This document shows positions 1 through 56,423 of a DNA stretch of 56,423 nt, one piece after another. This DNA comes from a virus. The position numbers were made by a program, and so were the translations under genes. The notes below the pieces were generated by a model. It was not told the DNA's origin, searched no databases, and saw only the letters and a program-made list of their open reading frames with translations. Numbering within the stretch: the first letter of the stretch is position 1; every line of letters starts with the position of its first letter. The stretch is taken from positions 1 through 56,423 of IMG/VR virus record IMGVR_UViG_3300024344_000016. One strand, 5' to 3'.

Positions 1-22
1 TCCGAAAAAAATCAAAATAACC

Positions 23-144
23 GTAAGTCCTTATACCCCTTGGGTTTATGGCCCCGGCCCCGGCCTCGTGGTACGTAACCCCTTACGCGACAAGCACTTA
101 CGTTGTATATGATACCTGTGCCCCTAACAGCAAACATGGGGTGA
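23..144. repeat. GTAAG/CTTAC repeat, copy A
   Basis: First of three related elements in the early region. It opens with GTAAGTCCTTAT, passes through a run of alternating GGCC and CCGG, and holds a perfect hairpin CGTAA-CCCC-TTACG at 74-87. It then has ACTTACGTTG and a CTGTGCCC stretch. Copy C (2244-2366) matches it almost end to end; copy B is shorter. It lies just beyond the last leftward early gene. Its role is unknown: origin iterons, a regulator site or an RNA structure are all possible. Confidence 0.75.
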
Positions 145-157
145 GACGCTGCCCCTG

Positions 158-274
158 TCAACTACGAGCCAGCTTCGAAGGGCTTTTCCTAACCTTCTCA
201 CGAGCCTTGAACTTTCGAACCATATTCCTTGCTGCTCTAAGGCCCTCTTGTCGCAACTGTTCTTGTGTCTTCAT
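158..274 (-). CDS. 38-residue basic early peptide
   Basis: Small gene read leftward from the ATG at 274. An AAGGA ribosome site sits 7 bases before the ATG and a near-consensus promoter (317-345) lies about 40 bases upstream, so the longer open frame reaching 544 is not the gene. The product is rich in Arg and Lys and looks helical (LRQEGLRAARNMVRKFKAR, then a KLARS tail). No family is recognised. The charge would suit binding nucleic acid or an acidic protein, but that is a guess. The stop codon overlaps a lone TTGACA and repeat copy A follows. Confidence 0.65.
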   Translation of the reverse strand: MKTQEQLRQEGLRAARNMVRKFKAREKVRKSPSKLARS

Positions 275-316
275 CTTGTTTTCCTTAGAAGTGTTGTTGT
301 TGTGTGTCATACGTGT

Positions 317-345
317 ATTATACCTGATACACCCGTCGCCGTCAA
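317..345 (-). promoter_or_regulatory. sigma70-type early promoter
   Basis: Leftward promoter with TTGACG at 345-340, a 17-base spacer and a perfect TATAAT at 322-317. It drives the 38-residue gene ending at 158. Confidence 0.8.
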
Positions 346-347
346 CC

Positions 348-608
348 CTACCACATCCCGTTCTCGCTGTGGTCGTAATATTCGTCGCCACCCATGTAGT
401 CCTGCCATTCCGTGTATTCGTCGGGTTGGCCATCGTAATCATCCTCATCCTCGCAAGTCGGTTCCTCCTGCTCCGGCACGTAGTCGTACATGAACGGCTT
501 AGATCGGCCCTCGCCAATCTGCCTTTGCGATTCCTCGCGTACATCGGCTTCGCGGATCATGTTTTCGACATCAACGATGTTGTCGCGATTTTCTGGGAAG
601 TTCGCCAT
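348..608 (-). CDS. 86-residue acidic early protein
   Basis: Leftward gene. The start chosen is the ATG at 608, preceded by AAGGA with a 7-base gap; a TTG five codons upstream overlaps that ribosome site and is less likely. The product is strongly acidic, with Asp, Glu and Tyr crowded into its second half (for example CEDEDDYDG and GGDEYYDH). No family is recognised. Small acidic early phage proteins often bind host enzymes or mimic DNA, but nothing here shows which. It is expressed from the promoter at 711-738 through a leader of about 90 bases, and ends next to the following promoter. Confidence 0.7.
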   Translation of the reverse strand: MANFPENRDNIVDVENMIREADVREESQRQIGEGRSKPFMYDYVPEQEEPTCEDEDDYDGQPDEYTEWQDYMGGDEYYDHSENGMW

Positions 609-710
609 TTCATTTTCCTTCAAAAGAGTGTTGTGTGAGTAAGATGCCCCTTTCGGGGAACCAATTCCAGCGGCGTAGTTCCAACTGGGTTGTAGCTAAC
701 TTACTCCTCC

Positions 711-738
711 ATTATAACAAGTGTCGCCCGATTGTCAA
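711..738 (-). promoter_or_regulatory. sigma70-type early promoter
   Basis: Leftward promoter: TTGACA at 738-733, a 16-base spacer and TATAAT at 716-711. It drives the 86-residue acidic gene. The leader holds a small CCCC-TTTC-GGGG hairpin at about 646-657. Confidence 0.85.
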
Positions 739-762
739 CCCCTATTCGGGATTATTTTGGAA

Positions 763-858
763 TTACTTCCAAGGGTGTCGTCGTGCATCCTGAATGCCAA
801 GCCCGAAAATCGGGACAAGAACCAAAGACACGGCGATGATGATAATGAGCGTTTCCAT
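763..858 (-). CDS. 31-residue early membrane peptide
   Basis: Leftward micro-gene from the ATG at 858, with an AAGGA site upstream and a consensus promoter at 899-927. The product is one hydrophobic helix (LIIIIAVSLVLVPIFGLGI) followed by a basic tail, so it is probably an inner-membrane peptide with its C-terminus in the cytoplasm. It shares the block VP-x2-x-LGIQDARR with the 78-residue product of 2681-2917, which marks the two as paralogues. The function is unknown. Candidates are superinfection exclusion, membrane remodelling or holin-like activity. Confidence 0.7.
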   Translation of the reverse strand: METLIIIIAVSLVLVPIFGLGIQDARRHPWK

Positions 859-898
859 TTTGTTTTTCCTTTGTGACGTTGTTGCTTTGTATGCTCCC

Positions 899-927
899 AT
901 TATACTTATATTATCGGCACCTGTCAA
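899..927 (-). promoter_or_regulatory. sigma70-type early promoter
   Basis: Leftward promoter: TTGACA at 927-922, a 17-base spacer and TATAAT at 904-899. The spacer holds TGCCGATAA, shared with other promoters of this region. It drives the 31-residue membrane peptide. Confidence 0.9.
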
Positions 928-977
928 TACCCACCTAGAGAAAAAAACAATATTTTCCAAAGTTTTTTTAAATTGTC

Positions 978-1058
978 GTAAGTCATTGCCACGTAAGGGT
1001 TTACGCCCCCGGCGGCAGCCCCGGAGCACCTAAGTCCTTATCAGGTAAGCACTTACGT
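978..1058. repeat. GTAAG/CTTAC repeat, copy B
   Basis: Shorter copy of the element at 23-144. It has GTAAGTC at its left end, a perfect hairpin CGTAA-GGGT-TTACG at 992-1005, a GC-rich centre, TAAGTCCTTAT and a perfect palindrome GTAAGCACTTAC at 1045-1056. The hairpin arms are kept while the loop differs from copy A. It lies between the end of the 33-residue gene and the promoter at 899-927. Confidence 0.7.
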
Positions 1059-1100
1059 CGATTCTACTGTCGTGCATCGGGCCATCTATAGCGTTATGGA

Positions 1101-1202
1101 TCAGCTAGGACTATCCCGCTCCACATCTTCCCGCTCTTGTTCCATCGTCCATAACAGCAGTTCATCGTCCTGCGTCTGCGGCCAGTCATGAAATTCGTCC
1201 AT
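1101..1202 (-). CDS. 33-residue acidic early peptide
   Basis: Leftward micro-gene from the ATG at 1202, with GGGAG a few bases upstream. It has no promoter of its own and follows the 105-residue gene by about 60 bases, so it is probably co-transcribed from 1619-1647. The product is acidic (QDDELLLWTMEQEREDVERD) and probably helical. No family is recognised. The call rests on the ribosome site and position only and is weaker than for the other micro-genes. Confidence 0.45.
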   Translation of the reverse strand: MDEFHDWPQTQDDELLLWTMEQEREDVERDSPS

Positions 1203-1263
1203 CACTCTCCCATCACTAGAACGCTGCACATAATAACTATAGCAGAATACAATAGGCCAATAC

Positions 1264-1581
1264 TCATGACACTACCCTAGGTATGGCGGCGATGCTGTCC
1301 TTGTCCCACTTACGAGGATAGCCCACCTCATCGCAATCGCTAGGGCAACCGCACTGAATCCAAACCTTAGCGGAATCGAGCAGCTCACCCAGTGGGGCAT
1401 ATGGCGAATAGTTGAACACCATAGCGTTACCCAGTGGGTCAATGACATAAGCGATATACTTAACAAGCATAACGTTGCCATCGGGATCAAGTTCGCTAAT
1501 CTTGTCGATAGTGAGCGAATGATCTTCAAGACCGAAGTCGTCGGAATTGAATACAGTTTTAATATCTTCGTATTTACTCAT
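1264..1581 (-). CDS. 105-residue early protein
   Basis: The largest early gene here, read leftward from the ATG at 1581 under the consensus promoter at 1619-1647. The ribosome site is weak (GAAAGAAA), unlike the AAGGA of its neighbours. The product begins MSKYEDIKTVF, is acidic in its first third, and carries CGCPSDCDEVGYP near the end, whose cysteines could form a small metal or disulphide site. No family is recognised. Confidence 0.7.
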   Translation of the reverse strand: MSKYEDIKTVFNSDDFGLEDHSLTIDKISELDPDGNVMLVKYIAYVIDPLGNAMVFNYSPYAPLGELLDSAKVWIQCGCPSDCDEVGYPRKWDKDSIAAIPRVVS

Positions 1582-1618
1582 AATGTTTCTTTCGTTTGTG
1601 TTATCTTCTTATGCTTAG

Positions 1619-1647
1619 ATTATACCATACTTATCGGCATTTGTCAA
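1619..1647 (-). promoter_or_regulatory. sigma70-type early promoter
   Basis: Leftward promoter: TTGACA at 1647-1642, a 17-base spacer containing TGCCGATAA, and TATAAT at 1624-1619. The stop codon of the preceding micro-gene (1644-1799) lies inside the TTGACA box. Confidence 0.9.
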
Positions 1648-1799
1648 GAGCAAACTTCAGTTTTTTCTGAGTTTTCCATCTCTTTGTCAATGACAACCAT
1701 TGCGTCAAGAATGGCGTTTGTGGCTACCCTTGATGCACCGGCTTCCCTAGCCTTGTACCAAACTTCCCACAATTGATCTTTGATTTCTTTTGTCTTCAT
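1644..1799 (-). CDS. 51-residue early peptide
   Basis: Leftward micro-gene from the ATG at 1799, with AAGGA 7 bases upstream and the promoter at 1825-1853 behind it. The product starts MKTKEIKDQLWEVWYKA and is predicted to be mostly helical, soluble and mixed in charge. Its opening (MKT then E or Q) is loosely like that of the 38-residue peptide at 158-274. No family is recognised. The TGA stop is embedded in the -35 box of the next promoter, which shows how tightly these cassettes are packed. Confidence 0.65.
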   Translation of the reverse strand: MKTKEIKDQLWEVWYKAREAGASRVATNAILDAMVVIDKEMENSEKTEVCS

Positions 1800-1824
1800 T
1801 TTATTTCCTTTTCGTTATGTCTTA

Positions 1825-1853
1825 AGTATACTATAATTATCGGCACTTGTCAA
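1825..1853 (-). promoter_or_regulatory. sigma70-type early promoter
   Basis: Leftward promoter: TTGACA at 1853-1848, a 17-base spacer containing TGCCGATAA, and TATACT at 1830-1825. It drives the 51-residue gene. A small inverted repeat TCAAG-N6-CTTGA overlaps the -35 box. Confidence 0.8.
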
Positions 1854-1865
1854 GGGTAAACTTGA

Positions 1866-1973
1866 CTATTTTCCTAGAATATTCCAGAAAAGAATATTAG
1901 CAAACAAAGCACCAAATGATACAATAACTGAACCGTATACGATAACCGTTGCGAGTGTTTCTAGTTGAGCCAT
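1866..1973 (-). CDS. 35-residue early membrane peptide
   Basis: Leftward micro-gene from the ATG at 1973, with AAGGA upstream and its own promoter at 2013-2041. After a short polar start (MAQLETLATV) the product is one hydrophobic helix (IVYGSVIVSFGALFANILFW) that reaches almost to the end. It is probably a single-pass membrane peptide. No family is recognised. Confidence 0.65.
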   Translation of the reverse strand: MAQLETLATVIVYGSVIVSFGALFANILFWNILGK

Positions 1974-2012
1974 TTGTTTTTTCCTTATGTTGTGTTGTCT
2001 TGTTATGCTTTA

Positions 2013-2041
2013 ATTATATTATACTTATCGACGTTTGTCAA
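2013..2041 (-). promoter_or_regulatory. sigma70-type early promoter
   Basis: Leftward promoter: TTGACA at 2041-2036, a 17-base spacer with GTCGATAA (one change from the shared GCCGATAA), and TATAAT at 2018-2013. A GGGAAT-N8-ATTCCC hairpin (2043-2062) lies just upstream. Confidence 0.9.
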
Positions 2042-2042
2042 G

Positions 2043-2062
2043 GGGAATCTTTAATAATTCCC
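2043..2062 (-). terminator. hairpin after 23-residue gene
   Basis: Perfect 6-base-pair inverted repeat GGGAAT/ATTCCC with an 8-base loop, about 10 bases beyond the stop of the gene at 2072-2143 in the leftward direction. It is not followed by a run of T in that direction, so it could be a weak terminator or an RNA-stabilising hairpin. Confidence 0.3.
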
Positions 2063-2071
2063 AAAGTTTTT

Positions 2072-2143
2072 TTAGCTATCCAATTCAACGACAGCTTTCA
2101 TAACCGCGAGGAAGACCAAAATTTTGACGATAATAAGAAGCAT
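2072..2143 (-). CDS. 23-residue early membrane peptide, copy 1
   Basis: Leftward micro-gene from the ATG at 2143, with AGGA upstream and its own promoter at 2176-2203. The product begins MLLIIVKILVFLAVMK and ends ELDS; it is one short hydrophobic helix with two lysines. It is a clear paralogue of the 23-residue product of 3020-3091: same length, same first seven residues, and the same KAVV-x-LDS end. Conservation of two copies supports real translation. The function is unknown. Confidence 0.7.
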   Translation of the reverse strand: MLLIIVKILVFLAVMKAVVELDS

Positions 2144-2175
2144 TGTTTTTCCTGTGTTGTTGTTTGTATGCCCCT

Positions 2176-2203
2176 ATTATACAAACATCGGCAGAAATGT
2201 CAA
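2176..2203 (-). promoter_or_regulatory. sigma70-type early promoter
   Basis: Leftward promoter: TTGACA at 2203-2198, a 16-base spacer containing TGCCGAT, and TATAAT at 2181-2176. Confidence 0.9.
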
Positions 2204-2243
2204 GGGGTAATTAGGGAAAAACCAGAAAATAATCGAAATAGTT

Positions 2244-2366
2244 GTAAGTCCTTATGTAGTATAGACTTACGTCCCCGGCCCCGGCCCCACAGCACGTAAC
2301 CCCTTACATAGCAAGTACTTACGTTGCATATGCTCCCTGTGCCCATAGCAGTAAACATAGGGTAGG
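2244..2366. repeat. GTAAG/CTTAC repeat, copy C
   Basis: Near full-length match to the element at 23-144. It has GTAAGTCCTTAT, the GGCCCCGGCCCC core, ACGTAACCCCTTAC, AAGTACTTACGTTG, then CTGTGCCC and a GTAAACAT stretch in the same order and spacing. An extra CTTACGT stands before the GC core. It lies between the 38-residue gene and the promoter at 2176-2203. Confidence 0.75.
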
Positions 2367-2371
2367 ACACC

Positions 2372-2396
2372 CCTGTGTGCACGTGTGTGCTACAGG
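2372..2396 (-). terminator. hairpin at end of 38-residue gene
   Basis: Inverted repeat CCTGT-gt-GCAC-GTGT-GTGC-t-ACAGG overlapping the stop codon of the gene at 2390-2506. No T run follows, so the terminator reading is tentative. Confidence 0.3.
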
Positions 2397-2506
2397 TATC
2401 CATTCACCCGTGCCCACGTGAGCATACCACTCCATCGTGCGGGAGTGATACCATCGGGGCATGTGATGCTGTAGCGGATGTAATTGGTGAAGCGTGCGAT
2501 TGTCAT
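2390..2506 (-). CDS. 38-residue early peptide
   Basis: Leftward micro-gene from the ATG at 2506, with AAGG 9 bases upstream. It is the second gene of a unit driven by 2650-2678, after the 16-residue gene. The product (MTIARFTNYIRYSITCPDG at its start, then a Trp-rich ARWSGMLTWARV segment) is basic and probably soluble. No family is recognised. Confidence 0.55.
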   Translation of the reverse strand: MTIARFTNYIRYSITCPDGITPARWSGMLTWARVNGYL

Positions 2507-2566
2507 TGTGTTACCCTTGTCGTGTTGTGCGTGTGGGACAGCGATATAGGCCCGCCAGCCCACATC

Positions 2567-2617
2567 TCAGCCATCCATGATGATGGCGAGCAGTGCGATA
2601 ATGAATGCCCATTCCAT
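2567..2617 (-). CDS. 16-residue hydrophobic peptide
   Basis: Extremely short leftward reading frame from the ATG at 2617. It has the strongest ribosome site of the region (AAAGGAG, 7 bases before the ATG) and follows the consensus promoter at 2650-2678. The product is MEWAFIIALLAIIMDG, a half-membrane hydrophobic peptide. It may be a functional micropeptide or a leader coupled to the 38-residue gene downstream. Confidence 0.5.
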   Translation of the reverse strand: MEWAFIIALLAIIMDG

Positions 2618-2649
2618 GTTGTTTCTCCTTTGTGTCCTTGTGAGTGTGT

Positions 2650-2678
2650 ATTATACCAAGTACGCCTGCCACTGTCAA
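2650..2678 (-). promoter_or_regulatory. sigma70-type early promoter
   Basis: Leftward promoter: TTGACA at 2678-2673, a 17-base spacer and TATAAT at 2655-2650. The 78-residue gene upstream ends three bases before the -35 box. It drives the 16- and 38-residue genes. Confidence 0.9.
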
Positions 2679-2680
2679 GC

Positions 2681-2917
2681 CTACCACATCCGTCGTTCAA
2701 CGCCTTCGGCCAACGCCTTACGGTGATACTCAGCCAGTGTCTTGCTTCCGCCCTTCACCGCTTTCATGTAGTCGCTATCCTTGCCGAACTGCTTATGCTT
2801 ATTGGTTGGCTTGAATGATGATCGTCGTGCGTCTTGAATCCCGAGGATGATAATCGGCACCACGATCATGGCGAGTGCGAAAGCAGCAATCAGGTTGTCG
2901 ATGGTGGTAGTTGTCAT
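2681..2917 (-). CDS. 78-residue early membrane protein
   Basis: Leftward gene from the ATG at 2917, with AAGGA upstream and a promoter at 2958-2985. Residues about 5-27 form a hydrophobic helix (IAAFALAMIVVPIIILGI), followed by QDARR and a basic soluble tail of about 45 residues with several Lys and Arg. The helix plus LGIQDARR block is shared with the 31-residue peptide at 763-858, so the shorter gene looks like this one without its tail. It is probably anchored with its tail in the cytoplasm. The function is unknown. Confidence 0.75.
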   Translation of the reverse strand: MTTTTIDNLIAAFALAMIVVPIIILGIQDARRSSFKPTNKHKQFGKDSDYMKAVKGGSKTLAEYHRKALAEGVERRMW

Positions 2918-2957
2918 TGTGTTTGTCCTTGTGTGTGTTGTTGTTTGTTATGCTCTT

Positions 2958-2985
2958 ATTATACCAACATGCTTAGAATTGTCAA
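2958..2985 (-). promoter_or_regulatory. sigma70-type early promoter
   Basis: Leftward promoter: TTGACA at 2985-2980, a 16-base spacer and TATAAT at 2963-2958. It drives the 78-residue membrane protein. Confidence 0.9.
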
Positions 2986-3019
2986 CCCCTATCGTCAACA
3001 ATTCCAAAAGTTTGTTGCA

Positions 3020-3091
3020 TTAGCTATCGAGTGCAACAACCGCCTTCAAAACTGAAAGAGTGACAATAACTTTGACGATGATGAGAAGCAT
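3020..3091 (-). CDS. 23-residue early membrane peptide, copy 2
   Basis: Leftward micro-gene from the ATG at 3091, with AAGGA upstream and the promoter at 3127-3154. The product opens MLLIIVKVIVTLSVLK and ends ALDS. It matches the 23-residue product of 2072-2143 in length, in its first seven residues and in its last residues, with conservative changes between. It is the first gene of the leftward array. Confidence 0.7.
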   Translation of the reverse strand: MLLIIVKVIVTLSVLKAVVALDS

Positions 3092-3126
3092 GTTTGTTTC
3101 CTTGTGTTGTCTCTTGTATGTCCCCC

Positions 3127-3154
3127 ATTATACATAGTATCGGCCAAACGTCAA
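3127..3154 (-). promoter_or_regulatory. sigma70-type early promoter
   Basis: Leftward promoter: TTGACG at 3154-3149, a 16-base spacer containing GGCCGATA, and TATAAT at 3132-3127. It is the first promoter of the leftward early array. Confidence 0.85.
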
Positions 3155-3393
3155 CCCCAAATTGAGACAATCCCCAAAAAAAAGACAAGTTTTTTTCGCG
3201 GGGGGTTTTCTGTTCGATCTTTGAAGCCCCTCCGCAGCCCGAAAATCGCGGGGTGGTGTAAACACAATTGGCACTCAGAATATCAAAATGTCTTACCCAA
3301 ACCGCACCGACTCGCCTCATTTCGCCGCTTTATGGCACTAAAATGTGTATAATTTATGTGCGGCACCTATAATTCACTAGAGGAGGACACAAA
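3155..3393. other. divergent intergenic region
   Basis: Gene-free gap between the leftward early array and the rightward late genes. It holds A- and T-runs, a G-run (about 3199-3207) and, near its right end, the late-type motif at 3344-3353. No gene, RNA or clear operator was recognised. Confidence 0.5.
3344..3353 (+). promoter_or_regulatory. TGTGTATA late-type motif
   Basis: TGTGTATAAT, 50 bases before the ATG of the gene at 3394. Closely similar motifs stand before six other rightward genes. No good -35 box is seen, so an extended -10 or phage-sigma promoter is proposed. Confidence 0.5.
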
Positions 3394-3645
3394 ATGTCTA
3401 AAAAAGAACACCGAGAGCGGGAAAAGCGTATGGCATCCTTTATGACCGCCAAAAGCACTGCCAAACTTAAAGAAGAGATAGACAAAGTTTTAGCTGACGA
3501 GATTCCAGATCCCGTGGCTCCTGCCTTTGATTTCAATGCCCCAAAAGTTCCCCCAGATGAAAGAGCAACCGAGTTAGATCTTATGGAACAAATGGATCGA
3601 GCAGAAAGAGCCGCAGAAGAAGATGAAAATTCCCAAAGGTATTAA
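3394..3645 (+). CDS. 83-residue protein, unknown
   Basis: First rightward gene, with a strong AGAGGAGG site before its ATG. The product is charged and mainly helical: a Lys/Arg/Glu-rich start (KKEHREREKR), a middle with several prolines (EIPDPVAPAFDFNAPKVPP) and an acidic helical end. No family is recognised. It overlaps the sigma-like gene by 23 bases, so the two are likely translated together. Confidence 0.7.
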   Translation: MSKKEHREREKRMASFMTAKSTAKLKEEIDKVLADEIPDPVAPAFDFNAPKVPPDERATELDLMEQMDRAERAAEEDENSQRY

Positions 3646-4147
3646 TGAGGGTGAAGCCGTTGAGGTTATAATGAAAATAGCAAAACGGCTCGCCCCTAAA
3701 TATGTTTTTGCTTCATATGATGTAGAAGACATACAACAGGAAGCTTTTCTTATCGGTATTGCTGGTTTAGAAAAATATGACCAGAAACGCCCCCTAGAGA
3801 ACTTCATGTACACGCACATAAATAATCGCCTGAAGACTTTTAAGCGAGATAACTATTATCGCTTGGATTATGGCACAGCCGCCCAAAAAATACAGGACAG
3901 AAAGAAAAATCTCCTTGAGCCTGTAGATATTGATGCCATATATAGTGTTTATACCAATGAACAGTCTACTAGCAACGCCCAAATACATGAAACCCTAGAA
4001 CTGATTGATAAAAAGCTCCCAGCTCATCTCCGTCGCGACTATCTTAAACTTCAATCAAACTCTCCTTTGCCCAAAGGCCGGAAGGCCATTGTCATCGAAA
4101 CTATAGAGAGAATCATTAATGGAGACGATTATGAAGAAGAAGGGTAG
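3623..4147 (+). CDS. sigma-like transcription factor
   Basis: 174 residues. Residues about 32-77 resemble sigma70 region 2, which binds core RNA polymerase and the -10 element: DVEDIQQEAFLIGIAGLEKY is followed by DQKRPLENFMYTHINNRL and a basic FKRDNYYR. The host form is DVEDLIQEG...AVEKFD...FSTYA. The rest is short and lacks an obvious region 4, as in late sigma factors such as T4 gp55. Placed at the head of the rightward genes, it may direct late transcription. It overlaps genes on both sides. A non-sigma role is possible. Confidence 0.6.
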   Translation: MKIPKGINEGEAVEVIMKIAKRLAPKYVFASYDVEDIQQEAFLIGIAGLEKYDQKRPLENFMYTHINNRLKTFKRDNYYRLDYGTAAQKIQDRKKNLLEPVDIDAIYSVYTNEQSTSNAQIHETLELIDKKLPAHLRRDYLKLQSNSPLPKGRKAIVIETIERIINGDDYEEEG

Positions 4148-4931
4148 ATTCTCCAATGAAGAGATGGAGTTTATCGAGGCGAACGCCGAGGTTCTTTCTC
4201 CAGAATCCATCGCTGAAACTCTCGACCGAGATCCAGACAGCGTCCGTGAGTGGATAGGTAGAAAAATTGGTTTCTCAGCGAAACAGAAAAAAGAAACCGC
4301 TGTAGCCAATGAACTCAAGGAGAGACCATATTACCGCGAGTTGATTCGTCAGTTCACTGCTGAAGAATTGGAGATGTTTGAATTCCACTTCAAAAAGATG
4401 TGGAGTCAGTTTAAAGACGATGTTTTTCATACAGAAGAAATGCAAATCATCGACACGATCAAGCTCGAAATTTTGATGAACCGCATTTTGAAGAGCCAAC
4501 AGGAGAACCAGACACAAATAGCTACCTATGAACGATTGGTACAAGAAGAAAAATCGGTGGACAAGGATCAACGCGACATTGACTATATTATGAATCTGGA
4601 GCGTCAGGTAGCCGTTCTGCGGGCCTCTCAGGAAACCTTATCCAAAGACTACAAAGATCTCCAAGCTCGTAAGGCGACGATGCTGAAGGATCTGAAGGGC
4701 ACCAGAGAACAACGAATCAAAGCAATCGAGGACAGCAAACAAACCTTTGCTGCACTTGTGAAACAAATAGCCACAGATGAATCATTTCGTACCCAGATAG
4801 GTATCGATATGGAAAAAATGAGACTCGCTATGGAAAATGAGAAAGAACGGTTGTCTGAATACCATACTTATCAAAACGGGGCTATCGACCAGCCCTTTCT
4901 AACACCGGAGACGAATTCCGAGCAACAATGA
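4131..4931 (+). CDS. HTH / coiled-coil protein, possible small terminase
   Basis: 266 residues from the ATG at 4131, which has GGAG 6 bases upstream; an ATG four codons earlier (4119) is possible. Residues about 5-45 form an HTH-like unit (FSNEEMEFIEANAEVLSPES, then IAETLDRDPDSVREWIGRK). The rest is helical and coiled-coil, with many Gln, Glu and Lys. A DNA-binding head plus a helical oligomer domain, in the same transcript as the large terminase, suggests the small terminase subunit, but about 3.5 kb separates them. The end overlaps the next gene by ATGA. Confidence 0.45.
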   Translation: MKKKGRFSNEEMEFIEANAEVLSPESIAETLDRDPDSVREWIGRKIGFSAKQKKETAVANELKERPYYRELIRQFTAEELEMFEFHFKKMWSQFKDDVFHTEEMQIIDTIKLEILMNRILKSQQENQTQIATYERLVQEEKSVDKDQRDIDYIMNLERQVAVLRASQETLSKDYKDLQARKATMLKDLKGTREQRIKAIEDSKQTFAALVKQIATDESFRTQIGIDMEKMRLAMENEKERLSEYHTYQNGAIDQPFLTPETNSEQQ

Positions 4932-5914
4932 ATATATTATACGGAACAACACTAGGATGGAACCCCGGTGATGAGCTTATACTCAAGGGGATAAGAAATC
5001 TGATTAATATAGATCACAATGCTATATATTATAATAGACATCCGTATGTGAATAGAGAGAGCAATCCGCAGTCCTACAGGTTTGACCTCGGTACAGAATA
5101 CATAGACCATGTAGTTTTTGCGGGGACACCAGAGTGGAACCGTGAGTGTTTAGATATGTACAGAGCTATAGCAGAGTATGACATTCCTTTTTCCTTCTTG
5201 GGGGTTGGAGGCCACACTTGTGCACAGGAGCAGGTGTATAATGCTTCTGGTCTAGGCACTTATGTTCCGGGTCTCCTAAACGAAAGAGTATACGGAAAGG
5301 CTAAGGCAAAGATTGCCAGAGACCGCTGGGCCAAGCTGGCAATACATGACAGCACCTTGGTTTGCTGTCCGTCATTTTTTGCCAATGATTGTCTAGATCT
5401 GGAGCCTAGAAGAAAGCTACGCAAGGTGGCGGTTTCTTGGCAGGATGGCTCGGTTAGTGTCTGCGGAGTACGAAACCCACTATTAGTGGAAGCTGTCACG
5501 AAATTTGCCAAGGAGCATGATCTTCCAGCAATATGTCACAGCTATGACGACTTTGTTTCGGCTTCGCATAGAGGATTAAAGGCTATTTACTCATCCCACT
5601 TCGAGGACTTTTTTGACGTATACAAAGAGTTCGATCTGATTGTCGGATTCAGGATTCACGCGGGCGGATTCGCCTCTACTCTTGGTATTCCCAGTCTCAT
5701 TATTCCACACGACGAGAGGGCAAACGCCGTTCGTCATTTTGGTTCGGTGGTCTGCAAACACCAAGACCTTGGGGATACCTTCGATCAAATAGACAACAAT
5801 TGGATACAAGAACAATCTGAGAAGATTATGGAACTCAAGAAGGAAAAGTACAACCAGTTCGTTAAATTAATTCCCCATCTCCGAAAAAGGGGAAGCAAGG
5901 AGAAGGAAAAATGA
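4928..5914 (+). CDS. polysaccharide pyruvyltransferase family protein
   Basis: 328 residues, matching the polysaccharide pyruvyltransferase family (CsaB/WcaK type), which adds a ketal-linked pyruvate from phosphoenolpyruvate to a sugar. Seen: an N-terminal GWNPGDELILKGI (family form GNxGDE), a central FSFLGVGGH, and C-terminal DLIVGFRIHAGGFASTLGIP, which fits the family R-x-HA...GxP block. The length is typical. It overlaps its neighbours by ATGA on both sides and is translationally coupled to gmd. It probably decorates a glycan of the virion or host surface. The acceptor is unknown. Confidence 0.75.
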   Translation: MNILYGTTLGWNPGDELILKGIRNLINIDHNAIYYNRHPYVNRESNPQSYRFDLGTEYIDHVVFAGTPEWNRECLDMYRAIAEYDIPFSFLGVGGHTCAQEQVYNASGLGTYVPGLLNERVYGKAKAKIARDRWAKLAIHDSTLVCCPSFFANDCLDLEPRRKLRKVAVSWQDGSVSVCGVRNPLLVEAVTKFAKEHDLPAICHSYDDFVSASHRGLKAIYSSHFEDFFDVYKEFDLIVGFRIHAGGFASTLGIPSLIIPHDERANAVRHFGSVVCKHQDLGDTFDQIDNNWIQEQSEKIMELKKEKYNQFVKLIPHLRKRGSKEKEK

Positions 5915-7047
5915 AGAAGGCTATAATTTTCGGCGTCACGGGACAAGACGGGAGCTATTTAGCAGAGTCGCTTCTGAATAAAGGATATGACGTTATAGGC
6001 GTGACCAGAAGGGTTAGCGTTAACACCCTGTCCCGTATTGAGCATATCCTGCCTAAACTTACAATCGTAGAAGGCGACATCACCGATGGTTTTAATATTA
6101 GTAAAATTATCGAGGAACACAAGCCAGACGAGGTTTACAATTTGGCCGCACAATCTCATGTCGGCACCAGCTTCAAGCAGCCAAGTCTTACTTGGGACAT
6201 CACTGCGGGGGGAGTCCTAAATATCCTAGAGGCAATCAGATATAGTCCCAGAAAAGATGAGATCAGGTTTTATCAAGCCAGTTCTAGCGAGATGTTTGGA
6301 AAAAACTACACGCTTAGTGACAAGGTGATGTTGCTCAAGGGGGACTGTGTGGTGGTTGATTCGCCAACTTCCAATACCGTGGGATTGAAAAAATATCAAG
6401 ATGAAAACACCCCCTTTATCCCACAGAGTCCGTATGGTATCGCCAAGCTCGCTGCTCACCATTTAGTTAGAAATTACAGAGAGGGCTACGGTATTCATGG
6501 TAGCTGTGGAATACTGTTTAACCACGAGAGCGAGAGAAGAGGCGAAGGGTTTGTCACTAGGAAGATAACAAAATGGATTGGTGAATTTATGTATTGGTGG
6601 CAGGGGGGAGAACACGATCCTGACCGAACAAGTGACCCAGACTTTCTCTTGATCCAAGACCAAAAATTTCCAAAGCTCAGGCTGGGCAACCTAGATGCAA
6701 GACGAGACTGGGGACACGCGGCTGATTACGTAGAAGCCATGTGGATGATGCTACAGCAATCAGAACCAGATGATTACGTGGTTGCAACCGGTGAAACAAG
6801 ATCTGTAAGAGAATTTTTAGACGCGGCGTTTTCTATAGTCGGTGTAGACGATTGGTCTAATCTGGTCGTTATTGATCCAAAATTTTACAGAGCGGCAGAG
6901 GTGGACTATCTTTTGGGCGTACCCACCAAAGCTAATAACAAACTAGGATGGGAACCTAAGATAGACTTCAAAACACTAGCAGAAAGAATGGTGATTAGCG
7001 ATGTCCACAAGGCGGGATTACAGCGACCCAGTTTACAAGCAGTTTAG
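5911..7047 (+). CDS. gmd: GDP-mannose 4,6-dehydratase
   Basis: 378 residues; an extended short-chain dehydrogenase that converts GDP-mannose to GDP-4-keto-6-deoxymannose, the precursor of GDP-fucose, GDP-rhamnose and GDP-perosamine. Seen: FGVTGQDGSYLAE (NADP-binding loop), NLAAQSHV, catalytic ASSSEMFG, SPYGIAK (Tyr and Lys of YxxxK), NHESERRGEGFVTRKI and RLGNLDARRDWGHA. Two insertions set it apart from the E. coli enzyme: about 30 residues after SEMFG and about 25 before RLGN. The ribosome site AAGGAGAAGGA is strong. The fucosyltransferase-like gene at 46720 could use a derived sugar. Confidence 0.93.
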   Translation: MKKAIIFGVTGQDGSYLAESLLNKGYDVIGVTRRVSVNTLSRIEHILPKLTIVEGDITDGFNISKIIEEHKPDEVYNLAAQSHVGTSFKQPSLTWDITAGGVLNILEAIRYSPRKDEIRFYQASSSEMFGKNYTLSDKVMLLKGDCVVVDSPTSNTVGLKKYQDENTPFIPQSPYGIAKLAAHHLVRNYREGYGIHGSCGILFNHESERRGEGFVTRKITKWIGEFMYWWQGGEHDPDRTSDPDFLLIQDQKFPKLRLGNLDARRDWGHAADYVEAMWMMLQQSEPDDYVVATGETRSVREFLDAAFSIVGVDDWSNLVVIDPKFYRAAEVDYLLGVPTKANNKLGWEPKIDFKTLAERMVISDVHKAGLQRPSLQAV

Positions 7048-52648: not shown

Positions 52649-53767
52649 TTAACCTCCAAAAGTATTTATTGCGTCTACAATGTGCAATATTTCTTGGTCC
52701 TTTAAAAAAGGGTGGATGGGAAGACTCACCATTCTTTCGGCATATTCTTCCGTTCTAGTTAGTTGTGTCTCAACCCTTCTGTAGAACGGCATTTTATGTA
52801 TTGGTACTGGGTAGTGGATGCCGCATTCTACATTATTATAATCCAAATGCTTCATAAACGCATTTCTATTTTCAGAATCTTTGAGTAAAACCGGTAATAT
52901 GTGATACACCTGTAGAGTATTGTCGGTCAACATCCACGAAATTCTATCATTATTTATTTGCGATCTAATTTTATTTGCCGCGATAGATCTGGATCTATTC
53001 CACTCGTCTAGTTTCCGAAGCTTCCAATAGAGAATTATAGCCTGTATGGAATCTAGTCTGTGATTATGCCCAATGCCCTCGTGTACGTATTTTTCTACCG
53101 ATCCGTAATTTCGGAGCAGCCTACACCTTTCGGCTATCTTCTCGTTGTTTGTCACTATTATCCCAGCGTCTCCAGCGGCTCCCAAGTTCTTACCGGGATA
53201 CAGAGAGAAAGCTGACACATCACCCACGCTACCAGCAACCGTACCTCGGGGGGATTTGGCACCGTGTGCCTGAGAAGCGTCTTCCAGCAATAAACAATCG
53301 TACTTTGATGCGAGATGTCGTATTTTATCAACAGCATCGCAGCATCCATACATATGGACGGCCACCACTAGACAGCTTCCGGCTAAACGTGGCTGCGACA
53401 AGTATCGCTCAAGTTGACTGGTATCCATTTGCCCATTTTGATCTACGTCAACCGGTTCGATTAGTGCATCAGGGTACGCTTCCTTTATAGCTAGCCAAGT
53501 CGCTACGAATGTATTAGCTGGCATAAAAACCAAGGGGCACCCCTTTAATTCTAACGCTTTTGCGGCCACTTTTATAGCATCCGTTCCGTTGGAAACCCCT
53601 ATCCCATGCTGAGAGCGGCAGTATTCAGCAAAAGCTTCCTCAAACCTTTTGACTTGAGGGCCGAGTATAAATTGGGAAGTGTAGAACAGTTCTCGTATTT
53701 CTGGAACCGCCTGTTCTTCTATCTCTAGCCATTGTGCGTTGAGGTTGTTAAATTTAACCTGATTCAT
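52649..53767 (-). CDS. DegT/DnrJ-type sugar aminotransferase
   Basis: 372 residues. PLP-dependent enzyme of the DegT/DnrJ/EryC1/StrS family, which aminates a keto-sugar bound to a nucleotide. Seen: GVSNGTDAI (phosphate-binding), LEDASQAHGA at about 161-170, and SLYPGKNLGAAGDAG with the PLP lysine at 193. YPGKNLGAxGDAG resembles C3-acting enzymes such as FdtB/QdtB more than PerA. NHRLDSIQAIIL follows. The gene overlaps the oxidoreductase gene by 14 bases, so the pair probably acts in order on one sugar. SD AGGGAG. Confidence 0.85.
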   Translation of the reverse strand: MNQVKFNNLNAQWLEIEEQAVPEIRELFYTSQFILGPQVKRFEEAFAEYCRSQHGIGVSNGTDAIKVAAKALELKGCPLVFMPANTFVATWLAIKEAYPDALIEPVDVDQNGQMDTSQLERYLSQPRLAGSCLVVAVHMYGCCDAVDKIRHLASKYDCLLLEDASQAHGAKSPRGTVAGSVGDVSAFSLYPGKNLGAAGDAGIIVTNNEKIAERCRLLRNYGSVEKYVHEGIGHNHRLDSIQAIILYWKLRKLDEWNRSRSIAANKIRSQINNDRISWMLTDNTLQVYHILPVLLKDSENRNAFMKHLDYNNVECGIHYPVPIHKMPFYRRVETQLTRTEEYAERMVSLPIHPFLKDQEILHIVDAINTFGG

Positions 53768-54611
53768 ACAGACTCCCTGTTATGTGGAGGCTCAAGTCTT
53801 TTTGCTCAGGCCCCCAGTCTCCATTTAAAAAGTTGGTGATAGAACTGTGTAGCGGGGACTTTGGTTCTATCGGTATAACATCGTTTCCATAAAGGATCGT
53901 AGACGTATTGTCGTCCCAATGCAGAAAAGAATTTTCGTTTGCGTTAAACTCTAGGATATACATTCTGTTCTTCATCCCATAAGACCAGCTTGCGTTGATT
54001 TGCATACTGGTTTCTGAAAATTCAAGAACCCCCACTGTACTGTCGTCTTGGTCAGAGTTTTTGTCTCTTTTGAAGTCTAGCCACTCAGATCTCACGGGTG
54101 CTTCGTCTAATAAGTAACAACCTATTGAAACGTCATGTGAAGCTAAATCCCATCTGGCATTAACATCGGTACGAACAGGGCCGAAGTTCATCCTGTTAGC
54201 TATTATACTTTTCGGCTTTCCCAATCCTCCAATCAGGGTTTTGATTTTTTGTACCGCCGGGTTGTAAGTAAATAACCAGTCTACAAACAATCTTGAGTTA
54301 TGTTTGTCCGATATTTCATACAGCTTTTGACAATGTTTCAGATTTGTGTCTAATGGTTTTTCACAAAATACATCAATACCACGCTCTAGGAAGTGTCTGC
54401 AAACTTCGTAGTGGCTTGCCACTGGAACAATCACAAACACAGCATCGCAGGACAGCTTTCTGTAATCGCGAACCTGCCTGTATTTCTCTCCTATCTCGTG
54501 CCAGTCTACATCTCTTTGTTCGCACACGACGATATCTCTGTGTCCCAGTTCCCGTAGGTTTCTGAGGATCACCTTGCCCCAGTGTCCTAGTCCGACTATA
54601 CCTATTTTCAC
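53754..54611 (-). CDS. Gfo/Idh/MocA sugar oxidoreductase
   Basis: 285 residues from the GTG at 54611, chosen because GGAAGG lies upstream and the GTG overlaps the previous stop as GTGA; the longer frame from 54701 lies inside that gene. It begins VKIGIVGLGHWGKVILRNL (NAD-binding GxGxxG), and VFCEKPLDTN is the EKP motif that sets the nicotinamide and catalytic Lys. It probably oxidises a nucleotide sugar and, with the aminotransferase, makes a 3-amino sugar (WbpB/WbpE-like logic). The substrate is not known. Confidence 0.8.
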   Translation of the reverse strand: MKIGIVGLGHWGKVILRNLRELGHRDIVVCEQRDVDWHEIGEKYRQVRDYRKLSCDAVFVIVPVASHYEVCRHFLERGIDVFCEKPLDTNLKHCQKLYEISDKHNSRLFVDWLFTYNPAVQKIKTLIGGLGKPKSIIANRMNFGPVRTDVNARWDLASHDVSIGCYLLDEAPVRSEWLDFKRDKNSDQDDSTVGVLEFSETSMQINASWSYGMKNRMYILEFNANENSFLHWDDNTSTILYGNDVIPIEPKSPLHSSITNFLNGDWGPEQKDLSLHITGSLYESG

Positions 54612-55717
54612 TTTAAATCCTTCCCGCTTAACTCTCTTTGTCGATAATCGTATTCGGTAGCTTTTATCGCCTGATAGATATTGAAACAAACGTTTCGCCA
54701 CCTGAGAGGATTGAGGTCCATATTCCTGATGTTCTGTAGCATATGAATCCTGTAATCGTCATCTCTAATACATCTATCTAGGTCATCTTTTAATTTTATA
54801 GGGTCAGTTAAGATGCACGTTTTATAATTATGACGCTCAACAAAATCTCCGTATATATTTTCCATCAGGGGTTTTGAATTTTCTACCCAGTTTGGTTCGT
54901 GAATAACTACAGGAATGGTTCCTACGAACCAGCTCTGAAGAAATCTTAGGTTATGCAGCCATAAAGCATGATTCGGTATGATTTGAAAAGACGCATCCCT
55001 GACTTCTCGACTGAGATCTGCATATGAGATCTCAGACTTCCTGCCCCTGTGAAAAATTCTGTATTCAAATTCGGGAGAATCCTTAACTACCGCCCACGCT
55101 GCCGATAGTGCTTTTGCTCTATCGGGCCACACACCTACATGCCGAGGGCTATATGCACATATTCCTGTTTTGGTTTTTTTAAGTGGGTCAATAGGGTAGA
55201 TTCCCTCTTTTTCAAGCTTGTAGTCTATGAAATCTGTGAAGTACACACTTTGCATACCAGATATCCATTGTTCTCTGGCACATGAGTATAAGACAACAGT
55301 ACCATTCCTTCCTATCTTATCTAGAAATTTGTGATGAGCGGCACACGAGTCCCTTCCCCCAAAAACTCGACCTCTGTGTCTGTTGGGACTATACACAGGT
55401 TCGTCAAGCATGAAAACCTTATATCTGTAATTTGCGAGAAAGTCCCACTCAACACACCTTCTGTATGTTGCCAGATCTTCTGTCAATATTATTTCAGCTT
55501 CAGAGTCTAGCATGTCTCGATAGCTTCCGTCCTCTTTAGCAATATCGTATTCTCCACAAACATCGAAAAATCCAGAATCTCTAAATATATCAGGGTTGCA
55601 GCGTGAACGGCCCCACTTATTCGTTTTGTATATAACATCAACCTTAAGCTTCTTTTCAGACAACTCTGGGTTGCTATATTTTCTCTTTATTTTTTCTTCT
55701 GTAAAGACAGGAAACAT
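54608..55717 (-). CDS. glycosyltransferase-like protein
   Basis: 369 residues, ATG at 55717 with TAGGAG upstream. The C-terminal half (FQIIPNHALWLHNLRFLQSW, then FVGTIPVVIHEPNW) resembles the donor-binding part of exostosin-like GT-B enzymes (family form G-IPVV). The N-terminal half has acidic loops and several Trp and Tyr residues. It is in the sugar operon beside the oxidoreductase (GTGA overlap). GT10-type fucosyltransferases end in a related way and are an alternative. Confidence 0.5.
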   Translation of the reverse strand: MFPVFTEEKIKRKYSNPELSEKKLKVDVIYKTNKWGRSRCNPDIFRDSGFFDVCGEYDIAKEDGSYRDMLDSEAEIILTEDLATYRRCVEWDFLANYRYKVFMLDEPVYSPNRHRGRVFGGRDSCAAHHKFLDKIGRNGTVVLYSCAREQWISGMQSVYFTDFIDYKLEKEGIYPIDPLKKTKTGICAYSPRHVGVWPDRAKALSAAWAVVKDSPEFEYRIFHRGRKSEISYADLSREVRDASFQIIPNHALWLHNLRFLQSWFVGTIPVVIHEPNWVENSKPLMENIYGDFVERHNYKTCILTDPIKLKDDLDRCIRDDDYRIHMLQNIRNMDLNPLRWRNVCFNIYQAIKATEYDYRQRELSGKDLK

Positions 55718-55725
55718 ACCGACTC

Positions 55726-56423
55726 CTACACAATACCAAGAGAGGTGTTAGTCTGGGATATACTTTTGTCTTTGGTGCACACACCAACAGCCGCTCTAAT
55801 AGCATCGATATTTTCTGGAACTACGTCGCTTTCTTGATGAACAGCTTGCATATACAGTAGCTTGTTGCCCCACACACCTATGGTATCGCTCCATACGCAG
55901 ATCTCTGGCATGTCGCCTCTTGGTCTGCCTATATCTTTGGCGTATTCCATTATTTCGGCTGTTGATCTGATTCCGTCCGAATTATGAACGACCCGAACTC
56001 TAGTCGTGCTTTCAAACAGGGCGACCACATCTTCAACCCGAACCTCTGAGCGTAGGTCTGCCGCAATACTATGCATATGCATAAGGGTGGTGGGGACTGA
56101 CACAGAGGTGGTGAAAATTTCCATGTCTGTCAGGATAGTGCGAACATCTGGGCCGTGGTGAGAGGGAACTACCAAGTGTGGAACCAATGCATTAACGGGT
56201 CCATGATATATGTCCCACGGATCGGCTGCTCTTCTAATCATAGTCGCGTGTACTTTTTCTACTCCGTATGTATCATCCAAAACCGATAAGGTTCTACATA
56301 ACCCTGTCGTGTTACAGCTAACAACCCTAATAAAGTTTTCGTTAAGACAATCGTTATAATTACATTGAGCAACAAAACTCTTGCCCACCTTTGGCTTTTC
56401 TCCCCCTTGGAATATGGCCTTAA
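55726..56423 (-). CDS. gap: type II (archaeal-type) GAPDH, C-terminal part
   Basis: 231 visible residues; the frame stays open to the window edge, so the apparent GTG at 56388 is internal. It is the C-terminal two thirds of the archaeal-type glyceraldehyde-3-phosphate dehydrogenase (NAD(P) enzyme, about 335 residues). Seen: AIFQGGEKPK, then the catalytic Cys in VVSCNTTGLCRTL, the active-site His region in VPSHHGPDV, VSVPTTLMHMHS, and NSDGIRSTAEIMEYAKD with MQAVHQESDVVPENIDAIRA near the end. All catalytic residues remain. Its place in a phage sugar operon is surprising. Confidence 0.85.
   Translation of the reverse strand, partial: KAIFQGGEKPKVGKSFVAQCNYNDCLNENFIRVVSCNTTGLCRTLSVLDDTYGVEKVHATMIRRAADPWDIYHGPVNALVPHLVVPSHHGPDVRTILTDMEIFTTSVSVPTTLMHMHSIAADLRSEVRVEDVVALFESTTRVRVVHNSDGIRSTAEIMEYAKDIGRPRGDMPEICVWSDTIGVWGNKLLYMQAVHQESDVVPENIDAIRAAVGVCTKDKSISQTNTSLGIV

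Follow-up and report, generated by a model that had tools for sequence, protein, structure and literature searches.

The window analysed here is a single IMG/VR contig of 56,423 bases (IMGVR_UViG_3300024344_000016), which is a fragment of a larger genome. Positions 158-3154 hold a dense array of ten leftward sigma70-type promoters and 13 open reading frames (ORFs) of 16-105 amino acids, and several of the promoters contain a second, bipartite module that slides as a rigid unit relative to the sigma70 boxes. We tentatively read the array, with a chance that we place a little short of even, as an SPO1-like region that holds the early host-takeover genes of a large uncultured phage, with composite early promoters in which a sigma28-like factor would read the second site. 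The initial annotation of this DNA mentioned neither the second module nor the structured RNAs and repeats described below.

All ten promoters fit TTGAC[AG]-N16/17-TATA[AC]T on the minus strand, each with no more than one mismatch from TTGACA-N16/17-TATAAT. In the direction of transcription, they are P3154 (3127-3154; TTGACG-16-TATAAT, partial second module GCCGATA), P2985 (2958-2985; TTGACA-16-TATAAT, no second module), P2678 (2650-2678; TTGACA-17-TATAAT, no second module), P2203 (2176-2203; TTGACA-16-TATAAT, partial second module), P2041 (2013-2041; TTGACA-17-TATAAT), P1853 (1825-1853; TTGACA-17-TATACT), P1647 (1619-1647; TTGACA-17-TATAAT), P927 (899-927; TTGACA-17-TATAAT, second module kept in part), P738 (711-738; TTGACA-16-TATAAT, no second module) and P345 (317-345; TTGACG-17-TATAAT, no second module). 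The initial annotation had placed ten leftward promoters within 3 kb, and each of them was recovered at its site. The strict pattern finds ten matches on the minus strand and none on the plus strand of 158-3200, and none in the remaining 53 kb of the window. In 500 dinucleotide shuffles of the array region, the mean number of matches was 0.002 and the maximum was 1. The leaders had been described as about 40 bases long with AAGGA; nine of ten leaders measure 25-42 nucleotides (nt), with ribosome sites of the AAGGA or AGGA type, but P738 has a structured leader of 102 nt and the site of P1647 is weak (AAAGAAA).

The second module has the form T-N-A-A-G / N15-16 / G-N-CGATA. Among the window promoters, it is complete in three (P2041, TAAAG-N16-GTCGATA at 2026-2053; P1853, TCAAG-N16-GCCGATA at 1838-1865; P1647, TGAAG-N16-GCCGATA at 1632-1659), partial in three and absent from four. 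When promoters are aligned on CGAT, T at -23, A at -21 and -20, and mostly G at -19 appear in every group, with CGAT either 4 or 9 nt past TTGACA, and the boxes have the consensus T.AAG and GCCGATA in 59 plus 363 promoters. In a set of 188 promoters made non-redundant at 70% identity, the TNAA box shifts with CGAT nucleotide for nucleotide in all groups with CGAT 4-9 nt after TTGACA (81 promoters, compared with 30.7, standard deviation 4.2, when the offsets are permuted). The distance between TNAAG and [GA]NCGATA, counted in loci that were picked by terminase only and thus blind to the motif, is 15 or 16 nt in 62 cases, compared with 0-10 cases for any other distance between 8 and 25. In view of the permutation and the spacing peak, chance was rejected as the source of the motif in the spacer. 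The module overlaps the sigma70 core in 305 of 328 cases, compared with 10% of random positions, and prefers certain phases, with CGAT 12, 10-11 or 8 nt before TATAAT or just after TATAAT; therefore, two recognition sites are interleaved. Apparent stand-alone copies mostly belong to a second geometry, in which TATAAT lies just upstream of CGATA, and true stand-alone copies are near background.

The same overlap is what an operator would display. The second module may be no promoter but a site at which a DNA-binding regulator, from the phage or the host, sits over the core promoter and turns off, or gates, all of the early array at once; we regard this as a serious possibility, albeit a doubtful one. 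In addition to the overlap and the near-background frequency of stand-alone copies, several phases are tolerated, with shifts upstream (+8 to +12) as well as downstream (-8/-9), as in steric occlusion, and in some geometries use of the module as a promoter would cost the transcript its ribosome site. However, the site has two parts and no symmetry, its spacing is sigma-like, all of its consensus letters agree with the sigma28 boxes, and it exhibits no dyad or direct repeat of the kind usual for dimeric repressors. The analysis identified no candidate repressor.

The preferred reading, a promoter for a sigma28-like factor, draws in part on the letters of the module. The FliA consensus of E. coli is TAAAGTTT-n11-GCCGATAA (PMC2859248), and both a TAAAG-type -35 box and a GCCGATA-type -10 box of a sigma28 promoter are present in the module. 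The spacing differs: n11 after TAAAGTTT corresponds to 14 nt after TAAAG, whereas the module has 15 or 16 nt and hardly ever 14. Relatives of the phage encode a small sigma factor of 157-159 amino acids (at 94946-95425 in G001) with regions 2 and 4, for which the best subfamily models are FliA/WhiG and SigB/F/G and the best structures are WhiG and FliA, with WhiG the nearest. Its scores against TIGR02479 FliA_WhiG (33-43 bits in the genomes G001 and G002) fall under the curated cut-off of 189.6 bits; judged by its sigma regions 2 and 4, this protein is kin to FliA/WhiG and not a member of the family. It is present in most near-full-length records and weak in the two most distant ones.

The window itself encodes a different, gp55-like sigma factor (3623-4147, plus strand), in which region 2 was found and region 4 was not (G000). 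The motif TGTGTATA, which has no -35 box, precedes plus-strand genes at 3344, 16838, 21117, 24692 and 45661 of the window and at 5698, 13007, 18382, 25737 and 44453 of G001, with matching sites in G002. Its copy at 3344-3351 (plus strand; matching sites at G001 5698 and G002 25969) is the putative late promoter of the divergent rightward operon. TGTGTATA is a putative late promoter motif and the natural partner of the gp55-like sigma; the T4 late motif TATAAATA was considered and displayed no link to late genes. With the gp55-like sigma having its own candidate motif, the small sigma becomes, by elimination, the leading candidate for the second module.

The 13 ORFs occupy 3 kb of the minus strand, and an ATG with a purine-rich ribosome site follows each promoter. 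The first ORFs after P3154 to P345 encode 23, 78, 16, 23, 35, 51, 105, 31, 86 and 38 amino acids, and five of these products (23, 16, 23, 35 and 31 amino acids) are single hydrophobic membrane spans. The arrangement of one gene per promoter, as initially described, applies to eight of ten units; P2678 adds a 38-residue ORF, and P1647 adds ORFs of 21 and 33 residues. Stop codons inside the next -35 box had also been described, and there is one such case, the TGA of the 51-residue ORF (1644-1799) within TTGACA of P1647; the stops preceding P2678 and P345 lie 2 nt upstream of the box.

Relatives of the ORFs were sought with tblastn in loci gathered via terminase and via promoter patterns. Ten of 12 queried window ORFs have relatives in other uncultured phages, including the 16-residue peptide; the second 23-residue copy was left out of the queries, and its kinship to a peptide in locus L104 is known separately, which gives 11 of 13. 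Codon comparisons between phages yield ratios of nonsynonymous to synonymous differences (pN/pS) of 0.13-0.38, with single pairs being short and the families in agreement. The 23-residue membrane-span peptides at 3020-3091 (MLLIIVKVIVTLSVLKAVVALDS; relatives in L104 and L154; pN/pS 0.38) and 2072-2143 (related to the L104 peptide; pN/pS 0.29-0.32) are paralogues. The 16-residue membrane-span peptide at 2567-2617 (MEWAFIIALLAIIMDG) has the relative MNWFLIIAIIAIIIDG in L343 (tblastn E = 0.013), and the second ORF of its unit (38 residues, 2390-2506) has relatives in six loci. The 35-residue membrane-span peptide at 1866-1973 is conserved in L104, L106, L123 and L223 (pN/pS 0.13-0.29), and the 31-residue one at 763-858 is 90% identical in L104 (pN/pS 0.25) and related to the 78-residue ORF (2681-2917), which has an N-terminal membrane span. 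The 51-residue ORF has a pN/pS of 0.25. The 105-residue ORF (1264-1581) is conserved with 74-76% identity in L093, L104, L154, L160 and L223 and has no tblastn match in the phage collection; its end overlaps the start of the hydrophobic 21-residue ORF (1202-1267; relative in L150), the stop of which overlaps the start of the 33-residue ORF (1101-1202). The very acidic 86-residue ORF (348-608; net charge about -21) belongs to the largest micro-gene family, with 38 members in 33 loci. No relative was found for the 33-residue ORF or for the basic 38-residue ORF at 158-274, and no Pfam family was matched by eight array ORFs. Because relatives occur in other phages and pN/pS is low, these comparisons indicate that the ORFs are real genes under purifying selection, down to 16 amino acids, and the initial view of the short frames as genes is upheld. 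More membrane micro-peptides (MNTLFLVALAAIIYEGLLGG, MGFSGYLGLLIVLAFVLGDFD and near copies) were observed in the G015 array (L343 3980-5600, minus strand), where long hairpins lie between units.

These results bear on the simplest alternative, in which the promoters are strong phage early promoters of the ordinary kind, most of the short frames are leaders or noise, and recent duplication left the spacer motif as its trace. Duplication is clear inside the window for some promoters and for two micro-genes. However, the motif is still present after the redundancy reduction and its position shifts independently of the sigma70 boxes, and the short frames are under purifying selection between phages. 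By the motif, spacing and selection results, this alternative appears largely refuted, and we consider it very improbable.

The array is a property of the lineage. Terminase relatives with 77-90% identity (best segments) are numerous among viral contigs; an all-minus array likewise lies upstream of the terminase in L005, L028, L054, L077 and L078, and the array is confined to one strand in terminase relatives with enough upstream sequence. A genome scale of about 140-150 kb is indicated for the lineage by G001, of 138.5 kb, and by G002, of 148.3 kb, which has a terminal direct repeat of 127 bases. Where terminase identity drops to 50-65%, records that carry the composite promoter keep the promoter design, while the micro-genes turn over. 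Near isolates are missing from the phage collection, where the best terminase matches are less than 30% identical, the portal has no match among isolates and window positions 1-6000 have no near DNA match. Contigs of this phage type occur in bacterial metagenome bins, namely L223 (VFHP01000007, SAR202-labelled), L215 (PAAR01000005, Micavibrio-labelled) and also L305; these are possible host hints or mis-binning. Host assignment via the bins was unsuccessful, with the terminase present in one of 250 genomes of the order of the L223 bin (that bin itself) and in none of 142 of the order of the L215 bin. Many bacterial genomes, mostly Clostridia, match the composite pattern; the fixed TNAAG box is absent from them and they were treated as unrelated, except for L215, L223 and L305, which have several full modules.

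The constancy of the site also bears on a host reader. The sigma28 consensus known from E. coli is conserved in other bacterial phyla as well, and a bacteria-wide consensus would explain a constant site in records with terminases only 50% identical. The host flagellar sigma28 could then read the second site, and early genes would start in both motile and non-motile host states. Against this proposal, the module spacing is 1-2 bp above the sigma28 optimum, and the terminase searches in the orders of both carrier bins gave no further genome. We regard a host reader as improbable.

The initial annotation had likened the region to an early host-takeover region, and this likeness gains support from the consensus sigma70 promoters, the tiny ORFs under selection, the lineage-wide one-strand array with fast gene turnover, the acidic family in 33 loci and the divergence from a rightward operon with a gp55-like sigma gene. 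In the mechanism that we propose, host sigma70 polymerase would transcribe each tiny gene, pair or trio straight after entry from the strong consensus promoters, and the products, which include many membrane peptides with a single span and a very acidic protein, would be made in quantity to alter the host. The second site would be read by a sigma28-like factor, for which the FliA/WhiG-like small sigma of the relatives is the best candidate, and polymerase would be re-directed to the early promoters later in infection, resulting in renewed or displaced transcription. We infer from sequence that the genes act early and in takeover, and likewise which factor reads the second site and whether it raises or lowers transcription. 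A broader version is possible, although we hold it with considerable doubt: across a widespread lineage, a phage FliA-like sigma may read a promoter interleaved with a sigma70 promoter, such that about 50 bp serves two holoenzymes in turn, with conserved membrane peptides of 16-35 amino acids and small structured RNAs as the output.

Several observations weigh against a phage sigma as the reader. The second module almost never stands alone, as an independent promoter class sometimes should, and four of the ten window promoters lack it. If the module set the start in some second-geometry members (L329, for example, TATAATGACGATAAAGGAG), that start would lie level with the ribosome site or beyond it. 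The boxes are spaced 1-2 bp away from the FliA optimum, and the small sigma fits SigB/F/G models as well as FliA. The window, a fragment, has no small sigma gene, and the search did not find the gene in G018, a 120-kb record in which the composite promoter is present.

Structured RNAs and repeats lie among the units. The leader of the acidic-protein gene contains a structured RNA of 70-80 nt (637-710, minus strand) that is 94-99% identical in L094 (2396-2476), L123 (13212-13289) and L223 (5874-5951); in L123 and L223, the acidic-protein gene is absent downstream. A second RNA (L223 5956-6055), 96-99% identical in L094, L119, L123 and L320, directly follows the leader RNA in L094, L123 and L223. 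A small RNA motif, P1-n-AAGCU-P2-7-nt loop-P2'-YCG-P1', occurs before or among micro-genes at L343 5717, 3639 and 2950 (minus strand), L150 5681, L088 5903, L170 1131 and L165 9054 (plus strand). Both of its stems exhibit compensatory changes (GGGU/ACCC, GGGC/GCCC, GCGG/CCGC; CCCC/GGGG, CCUC/GAGG), and it has no match in reversed sequence. An Rfam search of window positions 1-5000 gave no match, leader RNA included, and in L343, L150, L088 and L113 the only matches were to tRNAs and, below the cut-off, to transfer-messenger RNA (tmRNA), apart from weak ones. The intergenic repeat at 2225-2368 consists of GTAAGNNCTTAC-type palindromes 52 bp apart with a GC-rich centre; a second copy lies at 979-1059 and a third at 4-147 (no strand is assigned to any copy), all between micro-gene units, and related elements occur in many array loci. 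Folding of the repeats and leader RNAs revealed no clear stability excess over shuffles, and therefore no terminator is claimed for either.

Two further features of these phages were noted. A tmRNA is encoded by L325 (10501-10842, minus strand) and by G001, where the predicted tag is VEENFALAA, and L088 6509-6591 is the tmRNA match below the cut-off. Genes for a DegT-type aminotransferase, a Gfo/Idh oxidoreductase and a GAPDH C-terminal-domain protein occupy 52649-56388 of the window (minus strand) and probably have auxiliary sugar or surface functions.

The analysis indicates that phage genes of 16-35 codons can be recognised as real by conservation and not by a length cut-off, provides a simple promoter signature by which takeover genes of uncultured phages can be spotted, and brings to light a promoter design with two sites that is conserved. 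If a phage sigma reads the second site, control of the same early genes would pass from host to phage at a single spot; if the site is an operator, it would constitute a lineage-wide switch of early transcription.

The closest known design is the host takeover module of the Bacillus phage SPO1, which comprises 26 genes in a 12.4-kb terminal region (PMC6873191). Both have clustered small genes, strong promoters and ribosome sites (PMC6873191, PMC8208478). SPO1 Gp44 is an acidic DNA-mimic protein (PMC8208478), which the acidic protein of the array resembles in charge; this resemblance is only a lead. Unlike SPO1, the array has a promoter for nearly every unit, genes down to 16 amino acids, many membrane-span peptides, a second sigma28-like site in its promoters and structured RNAs among the units. 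Searches by DNA (window positions 1-6000), tblastn (the 105-residue ORF) and Pfam (eight array ORFs) found no sequence relation to SPO1 or known takeover genes. The array would work like a takeover module; the likeness claimed is one of design and does not extend to descent or terminal redundancy. What appears new relative to SPO1-like takeover regions is the interleaved second site, of which no description was found in the limited set of literature searched.

The lineage shares with T4 small early genes with promoters of the host sigma70 type, a gp55-like sigma that lacks region 4, a -35-less late motif and, in the relative G001, RIIA and class I ribonucleotide reductase. It differs from T4 in that the late motif is TGTGTATA instead of TATAAATA, the DNA polymerase is of another family, the portal is unmatched among isolates, and there are a second, FliA-like small sigma and composite early promoters. 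Flagellar sigma28 (FliA/SigD/WhiG) promoters share the letters of both boxes (TAAAG ... GCCGATA) with the second module; unlike them, the module has a spacing of 15-16 instead of 14 nt, is almost always interleaved with a sigma70 core and precedes phage genes instead of motility genes. Dual service of genes by host and phage sigma promoters is described for some genes of the phiEco32 and 7-11 phages (PMC4331800). In those phages, two distinct promoter sites precede middle genes, whereas here the two sites are interleaved at many early promoters.

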